From NCBI GenBank assembly GCA_904424815.1, contig CAJGBI010000001.1:954508-1018507 (forward strand): a DNA stretch of 64,000 nucleotides. The letters run 5' to 3'. Below are positions 13,164-30,951 of this stretch, piece by piece. The stretch's first letter is position 1. The number at the start of each line of letters is the position of its first letter. The notes under the pieces are model-generated. The model made no database searches and was not told the DNA's origin. It worked only from the letters and a program-made list of their open reading frames with translations. The position numbers were made by a program, and so were the translations under genes. Source of the DNA: Puniceicoccaceae bacterium Marseille-Q1082 (lineage in GTDB: Bacteria > Verrucomicrobiota > Verrucomicrobiia > Opitutales > Intestinicryptomonadaceae).

Positions 13164-13684
13164 GCAACTACGAGGACGAATACCAGAAGTGGGTCTCGAG
13201 CTTATCTCCCAAAGAAAGAGCCAAGCTCGTGGCTCAGGGCCTCGACAAGCCGCTTATGGACGACTACAAGCTCGGCACACCTGACTCCGAAGTGGCGTTT
13301 GCGACTATCGGCGAGGAATTCGACTACGACCAGTTCGACAAGGAAGAGCCAATTTCGGAAACTCAGGTTGACGACAAGGCGAAAGCGTATGGTTCGCTGT
13401 TGCTATGTTGGGTGTTTCAACGGCTTCAAAGCAATCATTCCGAAAAGAATTCCACTCTTGAGCGGGATACCTTGCTGTTTGCTCTTGGGCTTGAGAACCT
13501 TCTCGTTCTGAAAACGCAGACTGCAATCGCCAAGCGGTACGGCATCACTCGCGCGGGCGTATCCTCCAGAGTGAAAGCTTGGCAAAAGCTTCTCAAGATA
13601 AAGCCGTCAGCCCTTATGAAATCCGAAACGGCGTGCAAGTCTTACCGAAAGGCTCGCCTCGCCAATTTGACAAAGCAACGATAG
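13160..13684 (+). CDS. Phage transcription regulator with C-terminal helix-turn-helix
   Basis: This is a 174-residue protein with the start after CGGAGG. The N-terminal half is acidic. Residues 117-150 (KTQTAIAKRYGITRAGVSSRVKAW) make a clear helix-turn-helix of the sigma-region-4/LuxR type. There is no recognisable sensor or enzymatic domain. Because it is the last but one gene of the early operon, it could activate later genes. Its 3' end is followed after 2 bp by the next start. Confidence 0.6.
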   Translation: MSNYEDEYQKWVSSLSPKERAKLVAQGLDKPLMDDYKLGTPDSEVAFATIGEEFDYDQFDKEEPISETQVDDKAKAYGSLLLCWVFQRLQSNHSEKNSTLERDTLLFALGLENLLVLKTQTAIAKRYGITRAGVSSRVKAWQKLLKIKPSALMKSETACKSYRKARLANLTKQR

Positions 13685-13686
13685 GT

Positions 13687-14325
13687 ATGGAACAGGAAAC
13701 TTCTATCGAAAAATCAGAAATGCCTACCGAGCTTTCCTTGGCGATTGCTCGCATTAACGAACTGCACGCTCAAGCTGAGGAATTAGCCCAAAAAGCAAAG
13801 GAAGTAGCAAGCAAGACAATCGAGATTGCTATCGAATGCGGTAAGCTTCTCATTGAGCAAAAGGCAAAAGTCGGGCACGGGAATTGGGAAAAATGGTGTA
13901 GAGACAATTTAATTTTCGATATACGAACAGCTCAACGCTATATGGGGCTTTTTCGTAAAACTCGTGAAATAGAAAATAGCACCAACTCTGAAACTCTAAA
14001 TGATAGTAGCGTTAGTCCAAAAACGACACAAAATCAAAATGTGTCGTTTTTGGAAATAGCCAAACCCAAGAATATTCGCCAAGCTTATATCGCGACAGGT
14101 ATTCTGCCCGAAACGCCAAAGCCTGACCCAGAGGATAAAATCGAGCCTCTTGTTGTCCACGTCAGGCACATCGATTTCATTGTGAAGTGGTATCGCGACA
14201 CGGTTGAGAATAAGCCCGCCAAAGACTGGAAGTTCATAGAGCGCGAGGCCCTCATAAACGACCTGACGCCTCTAATGGAAATCTACAACGAGCTGATAGA
14301 ACTCCAAGAGAATTGCAAGCAGTAG
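13687..14325 (+). CDS. DUF3102-type phage protein
   Basis: This 212-residue protein has a coiled coil at about 20-55 (NELHAQAEELAQKAKEVAS) followed by a DUF3102-like segment: IECGKLLIEQKAKVGHGNWEKW and then DIRTAQRYMGLFRKT. This combination is common in phages and plasmids, and the second part resembles a helix-turn-helix. The function of the family is not known. I start at 13687 (after ATAGGT); the frame is open further upstream inside the previous gene. It is the last gene before the interrupted tRNA. Confidence 0.65.
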   Translation: MEQETSIEKSEMPTELSLAIARINELHAQAEELAQKAKEVASKTIEIAIECGKLLIEQKAKVGHGNWEKWCRDNLIFDIRTAQRYMGLFRKTREIENSTNSETLNDSSVSPKTTQNQNVSFLEIAKPKNIRQAYIATGILPETPKPDPEDKIEPLVVHVRHIDFIVKWYRDTVENKPAKDWKFIEREALINDLTPLMEIYNELIELQENCKQ

Positions 14326-14330
14326 GTTTA

Positions 14331-14484
14331 TGCAGGGTGGTCTAACGGTAAGACGCAAGGTTGACTCGCCTTTGCATACGCAAAGCGTCTCGCCCTTCGG
14401 GTCTTTTGCCTTTGGCAAAATCTCATTCGCGCTTTGCTTGAATTCATAACCTTGAGATTGGCGGTTCGAGTCCGCTCCCTGCAC
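14331..14484 (+). tRNA. tRNA-Met(CAT) interrupted by an 82-nt element in the anticodon loop
   Basis: Two halves give a full cloverleaf when 14363-14444 is left out. The acceptor stem TGCAGGG (14331-14337) pairs 7/7 with CCCTGCA (14477-14483). The D-arm is GTCT/AGAC around AACGGTA. The anticodon stem CAAGG (14356-14360) pairs with CCTTG (14450-14454) around the loop TTCATAA. The T-arm GGCGG/CCGCT surrounds TTCGAGT. The anticodon is CAT and the insertion falls between positions 33 and 34. No CCA is encoded. It looks like a phage elongator tRNA-Met. Either the insert is removed from the RNA or the gene is dead; the sequence cannot decide. Confidence 0.85.
14363..14444 (+). repeat. Palindromic element, copy 1 (inside the tRNA gene)
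   Basis: 82 nt from GACTCGCC to CTTGAATT. Hairpins: CTTTGC/GCAAAG (14370-14385), CCC-TTC-GGG, and TTTTGCC/GGCAAAA (14404-14420); a last ATTC/GAAT pair closes the 3' part. Copies 2 (16303-16380) and 3 (30871-30951) share the ends and the middle hairpin. The exact borders are uncertain by 2 nt because TT stands on both sides. Confidence 0.85.
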
Positions 14485-14490
14485 GCATAA

Positions 14491-14814
14491 CTACTTTTTG
14501 ACAGCTTTATAAACGTACACAAAATTGCTTTCTACTTTTTCTGCAAAAGATTCTTGTAATGAGGTAGCAATTTTCGCTGGTTTTAAATCATCTGCATGTA
14601 TTGAGAACCCATGTTCTTCTAGTTTCTTTTCTATATTCCTTGCAACTTCTTCATCTGAACACCTCCAATACTTAAAGTGTTTACATGTTATCCCCTTTTC
14701 TCTTTCATGTTCGCTTTTCCTTCTATCGGGATCGTTTGATATTCCAGCATACCAATGATGATTCGTCTGGAAATTAGGATCAATTTGACGTACATAGTCT
14801 ATTATTTTTTGCAT
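14491..14814 (-). CDS. GIY-YIG-like small nuclease candidate
   Basis: This 107-residue protein is convergent with the interrupted tRNA and only 6 bp from it. Residues 20-60 (HHWYAGISNDPDRRKSEHEREKG) resemble the GIY-YIG nuclease core, where a Y-x-G strand is followed by a helix carrying the catalytic Arg (xxxRRxxEH); a Glu-rich helix follows (RNIEKKLEEHGF), with a possible catalytic Glu. I start at 14814 (MQKIIDYV), preceded by AGAAGG; the frame is open upstream to 14853. Free-standing GIY-YIG proteins are often homing endonucleases, so its position next to an invaded tRNA is suggestive. The activity is inferred. Confidence 0.55.
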   Translation of the reverse strand: MQKIIDYVRQIDPNFQTNHHWYAGISNDPDRRKSEHEREKGITCKHFKYWRCSDEEVARNIEKKLEEHGFSIHADDLKPAKIATSLQESFAEKVESNFVYVYKAVKK

Positions 14815-15097
14815 AATTAACAAACCTTCTAGCTTTTTTAAGATTTTAACCATAGATTCAAGTTTAAAAATTTAACATCTGAATGCAAGTATTTTTTAAG
14901 GAATCTATTAACCAACGACATACGGCAGGGACGTTCGGCAGACCCGTTTCTTCTTGCGAATGGCATTTTTGAAAAGTTCCACATAAAAGTATAAATGAGA
15001 CCCGCAAACCCTCTATTTTGCTAAGATTGGGGGGCTTTTTTATAAGTGGAACTTTGGTGGAACTTATGTGGAACTTTTGACAACTTCCGCTTTTTAT

Positions 15098-15712
15098 ATG
15101 GAAGAAAACATCGGACAAAAGATATTAAGCAAAGACCTTGAAAATATAGTAAAAAAGGTCGCTTCGGGAAAGACTCTTACGAGTACGGAACGCGCCATAG
15201 TGGAAAAGGCTTATGGCCAAAAAGAAGAATCTGTGAAGTATGCCGAAACTACAACCGAGCTTGCGGATATTCTCGGTGTAGCAAGACAGACCATAAATAA
15301 ATGGCGAAAAATAAAAGGTTCTCCCAAACCTTATTCTAACGGCAAGCACAGTGTGTCAAAGTGGCGGGATTTTGTAAGAAAACACGATTTAAAAGAGTCG
15401 GACTCTCCCGAAGACGAGGAGTTAAAGACCCGCAAGCTATTGGCGGAGGTAAAGCAAGCGGAAATCAAACTCAAGGTAATGGAAGGAACGTATGTTGCCA
15501 TTGAGAAGGTTCGCGAAGTATGGACTGCCCATATAGGACAAGTACGGCAAATCTTGGAAAGCAGATTTTTAAACGAGCTTCCGCCAATTCTTACAACCCT
15601 CGATGCCGTACAAATTCGGGAGAAATTGCAGGAGGTACTCGACGAGACTTACAAGGCAATCTCTATCGCCGCAGACTCGATAAAAGAGCCTGTGGAGGTC
15701 GAGGATTCTTAG
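15098..15712 (+). CDS. Terminase small subunit
   Basis: This 204-residue protein has a helix-turn-helix at about 50-75 (TTELADILGVARQTINKWRK), as in Nu1-type small terminases that bind the packaging site, and a long charged helix (ELKTRKLLAEVKQAEIKLKVMEG) for oligomerisation, ending acidic. I start at 15098: a TTGACA box lies 15 nt upstream (15077-15082), the arrangement seen before eight other prophage genes, and the residues from MEENIG make a normal N-terminus. The large subunit is unusually far away (22005), with accessory genes in between. The last 4 bp overlap the convergent gene at 15709. Confidence 0.75.
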   Translation: MEENIGQKILSKDLENIVKKVASGKTLTSTERAIVEKAYGQKEESVKYAETTTELADILGVARQTINKWRKIKGSPKPYSNGKHSVSKWRDFVRKHDLKESDSPEDEELKTRKLLAEVKQAEIKLKVMEGTYVAIEKVREVWTAHIGQVRQILESRFLNELPPILTTLDAVQIREKLQEVLDETYKAISIAADSIKEPVEVEDS

Positions 15713-15997: not shown

Positions 15998-16753
15998 TTA
16001 TGCCTTTATTGCTTGGTTAATTTGAAGTGTTGCGCCTTTCTCTCTCCCCGCACGGTAAGATGTTGCGTCCATTCTCGTACCCTGCCTTCTCCGTGATTCT
16101 CCTATCACTCTGAAAGTGTTTTTGATATAAACCTCCAGCTCATGTTCATTGTTTGATAAGGCCAGTTCATAGTTTTGGCGGGATTCTTCCCCCTCTCCAG
16201 AAAGCGTATCTTTTTCGGCTTGCTCCATTCGCTCGTATATTCCGCACCTAAGCCCGAAGTAGTAATCTGCCTTGTTTGGCCTAAAGCAGGTATTTTTAAA
16301 TTGACTCGCGTGCTTCGCACCGTCTCGCCCTTCGGGTCTTTCGGCTTGCGCCGAAATCTCATTCGCACTTCGTTTGAATTCATTCCAACATTTGAAGAAT
16401 ACGTTTCTTAGATAGCCGTGGACGTATTTTGCGATTTCAATATTTTCGGAAGTCCCAATAACCACCATTCCAGAATTTCCGTTATATAAGATTTTCACCT
16501 TGTAAAACCTGCAAAGTATTGCGGTTATTTCCGTGTCGGCAGGATTGAGAACCGCCCTTGAGAAGAAGTATTCGTGTTTTATCTTTGATGCGGGAGTATC
16601 GTTTTCGATATTCGCCATAGTGATATTGTATTTTGTCATAAGCCGTTGAGCCATTTCCATTGCTCTTTCGGCTTCCGCCTTACTTGCTCCCTTATCCTTG
16701 GAGAGAGTTAGAAGCTTTTGTATTCGTTTTAGGATTGATTTTTCAGTGTCCAT
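15998..16753 (-). CDS. DUF2786-type protein carrying an in-frame palindromic element
   Basis: This 251-residue protein begins with the DUF2786 domain (ILKRIQKLLTLSKDKGA...EAERAMEMAQRLMTKYNI) and ends with the usual partner domain (AGREKGATLQINQAI). The family is common in phages and plasmids; its role is unknown. Residues at about 125-150 (including NEISAQAERPEGRDGAKHAS) are encoded by copy 2 of the palindromic element (16303-16380, 78 bp, 26 codons, antisense orientation). The frame is kept, so the protein can be read with or without the insert. The insert falls in the domain that includes the RNVFFKCWNEF helix, so some structural effect is likely. Confidence 0.75.
   Translation of the reverse strand: MDTEKSILKRIQKLLTLSKDKGASKAEAERAMEMAQRLMTKYNITMANIENDTPASKIKHEYFFSRAVLNPADTEITAILCRFYKVKILYNGNSGMVVIGTSENIEIAKYVHGYLRNVFFKCWNEFKRSANEISAQAERPEGRDGAKHASQFKNTCFRPNKADYYFGLRCGIYERMEQAEKDTLSGEGEESRQNYELALSNNEHELEVYIKNTFRVIGESRRRQGTRMDATSYRAGREKGATLQINQAIKA
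16303..16380 (+). repeat. Palindromic element, copy 2 (in frame inside the DUF2786 gene)
   Basis: 78 nt, from GACTCGCG to TTTGAATT on the plus strand, while the host gene is on the minus strand. The outer hairpins have changed sequence but keep pairing: GTGC/GCAC (16310-16320) replaces TTTGC/GCAAA, and TTTCGGC/GCCGAAA (16339-16356) replaces TTTTGCC/GGCAAAA. The central CCCTTCGGG is unchanged. The compensatory changes argue for selection on RNA or DNA structure. Confidence 0.8.
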
Positions 16754-17937: not shown

Positions 17938-18277
17938 TAAATTCTACCACATACTCTGTACAAGCGGAGACAAGGTGGTTTACGAAGGTAGGTTTCAATG
18001 CGTTTCGCGTTCGGCGGCAATGAAACTTCTAAGGGAGAAGGTAGGCCGCCAGAACCTCTATGGCTTAATTTACACAGTGACGGAAATCCCGATAGAGGTT
18101 TTAAGGGAGATAGTTGATGCGCTAATAAAAAAGAAACCGATAACCGAAGGCGATATATGTTCCTATAAGGAGACGCCGACTATAAGCCCTACATATGCAA
18201 AGATAAACTCCTATAAGCGTAATCCAAATAAGCCCCAAGGAGTAAACGGAGTAAAACGCAGACTGGGAGATTTCTAA
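17927..18277 (+). CDS. Unknown small phage protein
   Basis: 116 residues, start at 17927 after AGGAGGGG, overlapping the previous gene by 11 bp; its stop overlaps the next ATG. Basic and Tyr-rich C-terminus. The N-terminal part (FYHILCTSGDKVVYEGRFQCVSRSAAMKLLREK) has a strand-strand-helix pattern. No family recognised. Confidence 0.5.
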   Translation: MPTNKFYHILCTSGDKVVYEGRFQCVSRSAAMKLLREKVGRQNLYGLIYTVTEIPIEVLREIVDALIKKKPITEGDICSYKETPTISPTYAKINSYKRNPNKPQGVNGVKRRLGDF

Positions 18278-18699
18278 TGATATACCTGCTTGACCTAAAT
18301 TATACGCTCGTGGACAAGGAAAAGGACGCACCAAGAATTCGTCCTATGGAACTTCAAATAGAGCTTGAGACCTACCGCCAATGGCTGATTGATATGTTAA
18401 AAGGTAAATATGTGATTCTCACTACGGCACGAATGCAAAAATACGAGATATTTACCCTAAATCGAATATACACTAAGACGAATTGGCTGCCCAATGAGAG
18501 CTTTTTTTCTATCTTTAGGCATTTGCCTCACATAAAAAAGGAGTGGATACTGAAATGGCGAATATTTCCAAAACACGGAAATAATCCCGAACAATTCTTC
18601 GCAATAGAGAGCAATCCCAAAACCAGAGCTATGTACGCCAAGTATGGGATAAAATCGGCTCCCGCGATAGACGATTTCGGCAACAGAATTTCAATATAG
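18277..18699 (+). CDS. HAD-like phosphatase-type protein, paralogue 1
   Basis: This is a 140-residue protein. The N-terminus LLDLNYTLV resembles HAD motif I (DxDxT), with Asn in place of the second Asp. YVILTTARMQKY supplies motif II (Thr), and the late Lys plus FAIESNPKTRAMY could serve motifs III and IV. Short HAD proteins of phages act on nucleotides or nucleic-acid ends. It is paralogous, about 45% identical, to the protein at 20858-21277. The two flank the ParB/methyltransferase pair, so the block looks duplicated. Loss of the acid/base Asp may mean an altered reaction. Confidence 0.6.
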   Translation: MIYLLDLNYTLVDKEKDAPRIRPMELQIELETYRQWLIDMLKGKYVILTTARMQKYEIFTLNRIYTKTNWLPNESFFSIFRHLPHIKKEWILKWRIFPKHGNNPEQFFAIESNPKTRAMYAKYGIKSAPAIDDFGNRISI

Positions 18700-19366: not shown

Positions 19367-20874
19367 TAAAGATTGAACCGATTTCCGCCGTAAATCCCTC
19401 AACCTACAATCCGAGAACCGCAGACCCGAAGCGGCTCAATTTGATAGAACTTTCACTCCGCAAGCTCGGCTTTATCGCTCCGATTTATGCCGACGCCAAC
19501 GGAGAAATCCTCTCAGGGCACCAGAGGCATTTTGTAGCAACTCGAATGGGATTAAAGAATGTGCCTGTCTTTAGAATTCCCGCAATGGAATTACAAAAGC
19601 GCAAAGCTTTGAACATCGTATTTAATCGGGCTACAAATGACGGAGATATTTGCCAAACACCTTTAAAGGCTAAGCGCATACTGGAAACTCTAAATCTTTC
19701 GGAACTCGCCAATAGTATTTCAGATAAGGAGTTGGAAAGCAAAGAGTTCTTCCGTTGCGCTTATCCTTGCAAGGTGTCTGTAGCTAAACTTTGCAAAATA
19801 AATTCTGGGAGGTGGATTCAATATGCAAAGAGCATTGCAAGAACTCTGCGCAAGGCGGGAATTATCATGCCTATCGTTTGCACACCCGACGAAAAGGTTA
19901 TAAATGGCATAGGCAGACTTGAAATGCTTGCGGAATTAAAAGCCGATACGTGCGAAGTAGTTTATATATCGGAAGATGAAGCAAAGTTTGCAGATGCTAT
20001 GATGAATCTGCTGACAATGGATTTTAATATCCACGAGAGATATGAAGACTTGCTAAGGTATAACTCGTTTCGACGAGCCCGCAGAGTCCGCGAGGAATTG
20101 GGACACGGATTTGTATTCGCCGTTCACGGAAAGAATCCTTGCCACACCTTTGATATATTTAACCCCGCGCAACAGGCTAAATGGAGAAAAGAGCACGGAA
20201 ATACAGTTCTTGATTTCGGCGCAGGACACCTTACTGAGACGAATATATTAAATGCCGCAGGATTTGATTGTACCCCTTTTGAACCCTATCATATCGGAGT
20301 TTCGGAGATAGACAAAGGTAAGTCTTTGGAAATCTCAAAGAAGTTTTTAGAGGTTGTGGCAAGCGGTAAGGAGTTTGCGAGCGTATTTATTTCGAGCGTG
20401 CTTAATTCCGTGCCTTTTGCGAAGGATAGAGAGCATATCGTTTGTATTTGCGCTGCCTTGTGTAGGCCATTTACAAAGCTTTACGCTTGCGCCTCAAGCA
20501 CATCGGAAACTGGATATAGGCAAGTAAATGGCAAAGCCTTCCACAATGAAAGCAATGCGGGAAATATAGCCTTTCGCTTAGAATATGAGTCAGGCATTCG
20601 TATTGGAGACTTTCAAGACAAGCCAAAGGTCCAAAAATACCACACTAAAAAGGAATTTTACGACTTGTTTTATCAGTTTTTTAGGAATGTAAAAATATCG
20701 GAGATGAGCGGCAATGTCTGCGCAAAGTGCGAAAACGTTAGGCGCATTCCGTGGGAACGCATAGAGGAAGCCTTGCGTTTTGAGTTTGACTTGCCTTACC
20801 CTGACGGTAGCCGTATGGGATTGGTTGAGGAAGCAATCACCGCATTTAAACGTCGCTATGAAATATTTGGTTGA
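19363..20874 (+). CDS. ParB-domain and methyltransferase-like fusion protein
   Basis: This 503-residue protein starts with a ParB-like domain (residues 1-110: PSTYNPRTADPKRLN, ILSGHQRHFVATRMGL), continues with a second ParB-like stretch (about 160-230: IMPIVCTPDEKVINGIGRLEMLAEL) and ends with a Rossmann methyltransferase-like domain (from about 285: NTVLDFGAGHLTETNIL, with SAM motif I; acidic end of strand 2 in CTPFEPY). No cytosine (PCQ) or adenine (NPPY) catalytic motif is clear. A Cys pair (CAKC) lies near 455. It could modify nucleobases guided by its ParB domains. Confidence 0.65.
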   Translation: MIKIEPISAVNPSTYNPRTADPKRLNLIELSLRKLGFIAPIYADANGEILSGHQRHFVATRMGLKNVPVFRIPAMELQKRKALNIVFNRATNDGDICQTPLKAKRILETLNLSELANSISDKELESKEFFRCAYPCKVSVAKLCKINSGRWIQYAKSIARTLRKAGIIMPIVCTPDEKVINGIGRLEMLAELKADTCEVVYISEDEAKFADAMMNLLTMDFNIHERYEDLLRYNSFRRARRVREELGHGFVFAVHGKNPCHTFDIFNPAQQAKWRKEHGNTVLDFGAGHLTETNILNAAGFDCTPFEPYHIGVSEIDKGKSLEISKKFLEVVASGKEFASVFISSVLNSVPFAKDREHIVCICAALCRPFTKLYACASSTSETGYRQVNGKAFHNESNAGNIAFRLEYESGIRIGDFQDKPKVQKYHTKKEFYDLFYQFFRNVKISEMSGNVCAKCENVRRIPWERIEEALRFEFDLPYPDGSRMGLVEEAITAFKRRYEIFG

Positions 20875-21277
20875 TCTGAACTACACGCTTGTGGGCAACT
20901 CCCCCAAATGGGGAGAGCCGCGCATTACGCCGTTTTCAAGGCAGATTGAGCAGGAGACATATCGCCAGTGGCTTGTGGACTTTCTGAGGGACAAGTACGC
21001 AATTCTCATTACGGCACGTCCTGCCCGATATAGAGAACAAACCCTTGAAAGGATATTGTCGCAGACTGGTTGGCAACCGCAGGAAGCTTATTTCGCTGAA
21101 ATTTCCGCACCGCCGCCAGAAATCAAGGAACATCTGCTTTTAAATTACATTTTCCCGAAACACGGCAGAAATGGCGATGATTTCTTCGGGATAGAAAGTA
21201 ATCCAAAAACAAGGGATATGTACGCTTATTATGATATTAAGTCTTTAAATGCGGAAGCCTTTAAAATGGCAATCTGA
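20858..21277 (+). CDS. HAD-like phosphatase-type protein, paralogue 2
   Basis: 139 residues, starting at 20858 inside the end of the preceding gene. VDLNYTLVG matches HAD motif I with the same Asn substitution as its paralogue at 18277-18699, YAILITARPARY gives motif II, and FFGIESNPKTRDMYAYY is shared. The duplicated pair brackets two ParB-domain genes. Retention of both suggests they are not fully redundant. Confidence 0.6.
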   Translation: MKYLVDLNYTLVGNSPKWGEPRITPFSRQIEQETYRQWLVDFLRDKYAILITARPARYREQTLERILSQTGWQPQEAYFAEISAPPPEIKEHLLLNYIFPKHGRNGDDFFGIESNPKTRDMYAYYDIKSLNAEAFKMAI

Positions 21278-30468: not shown

Positions 30469-30867
30469 ATGAGAAAGGAAATTGAGGATATACTATTTGA
30501 ATACCTGCTAAGCGCATTGCCAGAAGCAATGAAGCCGATGCTTGTAAAGGGACACAGCACGGAAGACAGGCATATACCGTACATTTCACTCGATGTTGGA
30601 GATGTAAGACCGTTTTCAGATATGTTGGAATCCGACGGGATATTTGAGTCTGAAGTAAATGTGGCAATAGCGGATTCAGCCCACGATATAAACTATGATG
30701 CCCAATTTTTGCGCATAGCACAGATACGCAGTATTCTTGGGAATTTTACATTGGATAACGAGAAGTATCGTTGTGAAGGATTGTGGTTTGAGGCGGAAAA
30801 CGACGCCAGAGACGATAATAATTTGGGTACAGTCCTAACGTATAAGCTCGTATTTCAAACCTTATGA
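30469..30867 (+). CDS. Minor tail or tail terminator protein candidate
   Basis: A 132-residue protein starting 1 bp after the previous stop. The order helix-strand-strand-helix (EDILFEYLLSAL, YISLDVGDVRPF, SEVNVAIADS, DAQFLRIAQIRSIL) and synteny resemble gpU-type tail terminators. The family is not certain. Copy 3 of the palindromic element begins 3 bp after its stop. Confidence 0.45.
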   Translation: MRKEIEDILFEYLLSALPEAMKPMLVKGHSTEDRHIPYISLDVGDVRPFSDMLESDGIFESEVNVAIADSAHDINYDAQFLRIAQIRSILGNFTLDNEKYRCEGLWFEAENDARDDNNLGTVLTYKLVFQTL

Positions 30868-30870
30868 ATT

Positions 30871-30951
30871 GACTCGCCTTTGCATACGCAAAGCGTCTCG
30901 CCCTTCGGGTCTTTTGCCTTCGCAAAATCTCATTCGCGCTTCGCTTGAATT
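30871..30951 (+). repeat. Palindromic element, copy 3 (intergenic)
   Basis: 81 nt, about 95% identical to copy 1, flanked on both sides by GAATT. Removing it restores the compact stop-TTTGACA-ATG spacing seen at other prophage genes, which suggests a recent insertion between a stop codon and the TTGACA box. Confidence 0.85.

Follow-up and report, generated by a model that had tools for sequence, protein, structure and literature searches.

An 82-nt palindromic element interrupts the anticodon loop of a tRNA-Met(CAT) gene in a Verrucomicrobiota prophage, and we think it likely that this insert is a non-autonomous mobile DNA element that has become fixed in a phage tRNA which probably no longer decodes. 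We favour mobility at the DNA level because other copies of the element lie in frame within protein genes, in an intergenic spacer and in a tandem array, and because relatives without the insert exist. The window, by which we mean the whole stretch of 64,000 nucleotides that was analysed, is a prophage region of a 2.70-Mb genome (G000, contig C1:954508-1018507) and its features are collected in Table 1.

The split tRNA gene and its surroundings

The Rfam tRNA model RF00005 matches 14331-14484 on the plus strand with 46.7 bits (gathering score 29), the full model being covered with the insert included. Without 14363-14444, each of the 21 cloverleaf pairs is standard (20 Watson-Crick and one G-U) and the anticodon loop has 7 nt with CAT at positions 34-36, which confirms the preliminary description of a tRNA-Met gene split between positions 33 and 34. 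TT is found at both edges of the insert and the cut could therefore be placed up to 2 nt further left; it was assigned after position 33 because the element consensus, GACTCG...AATT, supports that placement. Interrupted at this point, the encoded RNA has no continuous anticodon arm. As the same split recurs in a second prophage of the host genome and in genome G002, it is unlikely to be an assembly artefact. Interrupted tRNA genes are easily missed, since ARAGORN called no tRNA in the window and a genome-wide RF00005 search listed the split copy of the second prophage (40.4 bits) without that of the window.

The host genome encodes 45 tRNAs, three of them with CAT, which makes the tRNA of the phage probably dispensable. 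Of these 45, a CAT tRNA (L110) read as initiator is closest to the joined halves (52/77 aligned columns); the two have 6 of 7 acceptor-stem pairs in common, and a C is read at the discriminator position of the host tRNA.

Table 1. Coordinates of the features of the window
Feature	Position	Strand	Evidence or remark
Integrase-family gene	1316-2335
Phage gene with DUF3102 domain, immediately before the split tRNA	13579..14325	+	PF11300 3.7e-11
tRNA-Met(CAT) 5' half: acceptor, D arm, 5' anticodon stem, loop up to position 33	14331..14362	+	Rfam RF00005 and pairing
Palindromic mobile element (probable), 82 nt, four hairpins, plus orientation relative to the tRNA	14363..14444	+	Model R1, covariation
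tRNA-Met(CAT) 3' half, beginning with the CAT anticodon	14445..14484	+	Rfam RF00005 and pairing
Terminase small subunit gene	15068-15712		Downstream of the split tRNA
DUF2786/DUF7168 protein gene with the element as a 26-residue insert	15998..16753	-	Pfam PF10979 5e-13, PF23771 2.1e-10
Element copy, 78 nt, in frame and antisense within the DUF2786/DUF7168 gene	16303..16380	+	R1 86.1 bits
Element copy, 81 nt, spacer after ORF 30469-30867 of the window prophage	30871..30951	+	96% identical; R1 99.4 bits
Integrase-family gene	44808-45917

Genes for the terminase large subunit and the portal protein also lie downstream of the split tRNA. In a DNA alignment, the end of the DUF3102 gene matches the gene that directly precedes an unsplit tRNA in a related phage (L071). 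On the downstream side the split tRNA is adjoined by a 120-aa ORF (14491-14853, minus strand) whose similarity to GIY-YIG (PF01541, E 0.0038) is weak and falls short of the cut-off. Homing by such an endonuclease was considered and rejected: the ORF has no PHROG match and the DNA of the second prophage does not align there, which leaves no consistent link with the insert. Further downstream, in front of the terminase small subunit gene, both the second prophage and L071 can be aligned with 14894-14982, though not with the DNA immediately preceding it; this short segment may be a cis-acting phage signal. Among the other phage genes, 21277-22008 (plus strand) matches PHROG 4752, annotated as a tRNA methyltransferase (E 1.7e-57), and two genes about 2.5 kb apart (18277-18699 and 20780-21277) both match PHROG 32036, of unknown function.

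The element and its distribution

The host chromosome carries an array of nine head-to-tail units of 79 nt (G000:C1:87747-88459, L059), whose junctions read CTTGAATT|GACTCG. From these junctions and from the constant ends of the copies we define the unit as GACTCG...CTTGAATT, positioned 3' of TT, usually 78-82 nt long, with four hairpins and in low copy. The tRNA and G008 copies measure 82 nt, the spacer copy and both integrase copies 81 nt, the DUF2786 copy 78 nt, and a copy of 114 nt in G017 has an internal addition. TT is the left neighbour in 16/16 copies listed, namely nine array units and seven single copies, two of which are the same site in homologous integrases; an eighth single copy (L064), with an altered 5' end, was left out of this check. 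The TT fits a target-site duplication and a fixed motif alike.

A genome search based on the insert recovered five dispersed copies in the host, and a pattern search returned the same five: those in the split tRNAs of the window and of the second prophage, the spacer copy, and a pair in homologous stretches, one of which is 16303-16380. All five fall in the two prophages. We also built a covariance model, R1, from six copies, which scores the tRNA copy of the window at 105.7 bits (14361-14444, left TT included), this copy being one of the six used to build it. Scoring the best 150 or fewer first-look candidates per genome, R1 found matches in at least 8 of the 19 genomes of the family, at no fewer than 28 places, with at least 14 places in the host genome; the weakest of these matches (below about 40 bits, in G009, G015, G017 and G018) are doubtful and may represent another repeat. 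With a pattern made for the 3' end, 5/19 family genomes matched, and the pattern scan of named genomes gave four loci in two genomes. G002 and G008 are relatives of the host in the same genus. Pattern scans of viral contigs gave matches only in two prophage records of one IMG genome (2914150438). When phage records were compared with the tRNA and the element, one phage alone matched, over 40 nt that correspond to the 3' half of the tRNA, and the same comparison with plasmid records gave no match.

In genome G005 (L067, 2778-3785), a segment that has two short ORFs is enclosed between diverged relatives of the element in inverted orientation, and another element-like 3' end, the third, follows at a spacing of 139 nt.

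Copies in a spacer and inside protein genes

The preliminary description had raised the idea of a small mobile element, and this is supported by the dispersed copies in genes, spacer and array and by the relatives without the insert. The DUF2786 copy is read in frame from the strand opposite to the tRNA orientation, and the homologous protein on a related phage contig (L082) lacks the 26 residues. Likewise, the element forms 27 extra in-frame residues in a tyrosine integrase of G002 and G018, which belong to different genera; exactly these 27 columns are absent from 9/9 aligned homologues (11 loci were supplied, two of which were dropped by the frame filter). In a wider integrase search, the alignments of many homologues were interrupted near query residues 126/150. 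The integrase copies, too, have the opposite transcript orientation to the tRNA copy and are open in frame.

For the spacer copy, the corresponding site of prophage record L070, from an IMG genome, is without the element and has a 0.7-kb insertion instead. L070 is apparently the second prophage of the host (L060), as its alignments with the window match those of L060. Since another insertion occupies it, this site is not a clean empty site. The insertion is a cassette (L070 18324-19040) with a 188-aa ORF between 11-bp direct repeats, CCTTATGAATT.

An uninterrupted tRNA and the divergence of the split copies

A search for the same tRNA without insert in related phages, which had been suggested beforehand, was successful. 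The related phage contig IMGVR_UViG_3300004154_000036 (L071), whose terminase is 87% identical, carries an uninterrupted tRNA-Met(CAT) at 2409-2480, in the syntenic place. This tRNA has diverged, its anticodon stem being different yet fully paired, and it is unusual in that position 33 is a G and two of its acceptor pairs are non-standard. A pattern allowing up to three mismatches found an uninterrupted close copy in none of 372 genomes drawn from the order; the tRNA of L071 is too diverged to be detected by that pattern.

Across the three split copies (window, second prophage and G002) the element is variable at 0/82 positions and the tRNA at 7/72 (Fisher p 0.004). Two stem pairs are broken in the copy of the second prophage and three in that of G002 (RF00005 score 31.6 bits), whereas none is broken in the window. 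The gene at the DUF3102 position contains an internal stop codon in both the second prophage and G002 and is open in the window. With L071 as outgroup, the window tRNA has undergone two changes at paired positions, both of which keep or make a pair. The insertion seems older than the split of the three prophages, yet the window tRNA retains full pairing. Decayed versions of the tRNA in related phages, which had been named, together with the lack of a joined product, as what would refute the first interpretation, were found in part: the other two split copies have lost pairs and L071 carries the tRNA uninterrupted, but the window copy is fully paired.

The full pairing of the window tRNA, and an element more conserved than the tRNA around it, count against the reading of an inactive tRNA. 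They are also what could be expected if the element were cut out of the RNA at its base and the halves rejoined by some unrecognised activity of phage or host, its identity being kept because excision needs the exact structure. We regard such removal, whether self-catalysed or dependent on a ligase, as very improbable. The identity of the element in the three split tRNAs can also be explained by a recently exchanged tract without selection, since 14328-14490 forms an isolated island of 95.7% identity between the two prophages, the directly adjoining DNA having no blastn match, and since most differences among the split tRNA copies cluster near the 3' end of that island; the numbers are too small to decide.

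Fold of the element and fate of the transcript

The insert had been described as structured, and the comparison of copies agrees with this. In an alignment of 12 distinct copies, standard pairs make up 96.4% of cells. Both partners have changed in 11 pairs; shuffled alignments give 4.3 +/- 1.5 such pairs and slid controls no more than 3. This alignment was fitted to the model, a circumstance that favours covariation, but a MAFFT alignment of six copies already contained 6 pairs of this kind. The number of further pair types (16 versus 14.8 in shuffled alignments, a value reached by 159/500 shuffles) is the one measure of five that does not clearly exceed the shuffled value.

The insert alone folds at -23.6 kcal/mol and the whole 154-nt RNA has a fold z-score of -3.1. 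In the ensemble of the unprocessed precursor, the acceptor and T arms are likely (mean 0.95 and 0.81), whereas the D and anticodon arms have a probability of 2-3%; shuffled inserts give 15% and 28%. Only 2.2 kcal/mol separate the minimum from the less stable cloverleaf in which the element extends the anticodon arm.

This last value would suit removal of the element from the RNA to give a working tRNA, as would the position of the insertion after U33, where the joined loop would be normal. The pairs broken in the other two split tRNAs and the orientation of the DUF2786 and integrase copies, which are open in frame on the opposite strand instead, point the other way. No known ribozyme or intron reached the gathering score, the tRNA being the sole Rfam family to do so in the window, so that group I, group II and other known introns were rejected for this 82-nt insert; in this the preliminary description, which had judged the insert not to be a group I intron, was right. 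RtcB-mediated joining was rejected as well, no RtcB having been found in the host genome with a search whose control matched 9/14 genomes. A search for T4-type RNA ligase found none, but its control matched nowhere and it says little. Of the two fates first proposed, rejoining of the RNA or inactivation of a phage tRNA, inactivation is thus favoured as the probable one, and a processed tRNA from the window copy is unlikely. The further suggestion of a small mobile RNA that leaves RNA precisely is unsupported; the copies read in frame from the other strand, the spacer copy and the tandem array fit mobility of DNA.

Excision without rejoining would be another fate. Intervening sequences in fragmented 23S rRNA are excised in this way and the pieces stay paired, and a double-strand RNase of the host could similarly remove the hairpins and leave two paired tRNA halves. 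The stable hairpins of the insert and the persistence of the acceptor and T arms fit such a course, but the D and anticodon arms are rarer in the precursor than with shuffled inserts, and a tRNA nicked beside the anticodon is not expected to decode; we regard this, too, as very improbable. Alternatively, the 154-nt locus might by now encode a structured RNA that serves another purpose, as a decoy or a processing signal for instance, and for which the tRNA-like ends would be retained. Its fold z-score and its standing as an island of high identity amid unmatched DNA agree with this, but exchange of a short tract by recombination accounts for the island just as well, the element by itself may account for the fold, and the stems are broken in the other two split copies, so that we give this reading, too, very little weight.

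Origin of the insertion

In the explanation that we prefer, a mobile palindromic DNA element, the element would have moved at the DNA level to sites 3' of TT, in prophages and elsewhere, within one Opitutales family, presumably through a transposase acting in trans. In this prophage lineage it would have landed after U33 of a phage-borne tRNA-Met(CAT), and at least three prophages would then have come to share the split tRNA by descent or by exchange. The plus strand of the split tRNA offers four places that end in TT and the anticodon loop is one of them, so that the insertion point needs no splicing to explain it. The hairpins may persist because recognition of the element depends on its folded DNA, or because they render insertions tolerable. 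The interrupted tRNA would be non-decoding and would persist as a dispensable phage gene, and the element would generally persist where its harm is small, as in a spacer, at in-frame sites of two proteins and in a phage tRNA.

As for the source of the transposase, no match to the Y1 family (PF01797; IS200/IS605, RAYT) was found in G000, a genome that is 96% complete, whereas 5/14 control genomes matched. Mobilisation by a resident IS200/IS605 or RAYT transposase was accordingly rejected, although such an enzyme may be supplied by another host or phage.

Comparison with known systems

In behaviour, the element works most like the Rickettsia palindromic elements (RPE), and we liken it to them without claiming membership of RPE proper. 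RPE, too, occupy spacers, and they are reported within the reading frames of protein genes as well as in the genes for tmRNA and RNase P RNA (PMC2229807, PMC10969869). Like them, the element is a short hairpin repeat at unrelated sites: a spacer, in-frame positions in protein genes with uninterrupted homologues, and an RNA gene. It differs in belonging to another phylum, in its usual length of 78-82 nt (105-146 bp for RPE), in that the five dispersed copies of the host lie in two prophages, and in that the RNA gene hit is a tRNA, at the anticodon loop.

REP and REPIN sequences with their RAYT (TnpA-REP) proteins share with the element the palindromic, hairpin-bearing character, but the latter is in low copy (at least 14 places in the host), about 80 nt long with four hairpins, and also found inside genes, and the host genome yielded no Y1 transposase.

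The IS200/IS605 family is characterised by insertion 3' of a short fixed motif, without obvious target duplication, and by hairpins. The element has hairpins as well and would be compatible with a miniature member in the other two respects, although its TT may equally be a target duplication; the head-to-tail array, in which each unit stands 3' of another's AATT end, is a further likeness. The missing Y1 transposase is a difference, and what is seen of target specificity here is the TT neighbour.

Group I introns occur in bacterial tRNA anticodon loops, where the element also sits. Unlike them, it has 82 nt, ends in T, has no Rfam intron match at gathering score, and has other copies that are open in frame on the other strand. 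Among the top matches in the open-licence PubMed Central literature, we recognised no report of a palindromic repeat in a tRNA anticodon loop.

Biological meaning

The split tRNA-Met gene cautions against assuming an intron whenever a tRNA is interrupted and all its arms are perfect. Were removal at the RNA level true after all, a mobile element would have been turned into a harmless 'intron' of a phage tRNA. On the reading that we prefer, Verrucomicrobiota prophages would harbour a compact and mobile palindromic repeat, tolerated both within the reading frames of proteins and in the anticodon loop, which is among the few sites at which a tRNA can be interrupted with every arm left whole. The split gene is a clear occasion to ask by what means these repeats spread, and whether RNA genes ever rid their transcripts of structured insertions.
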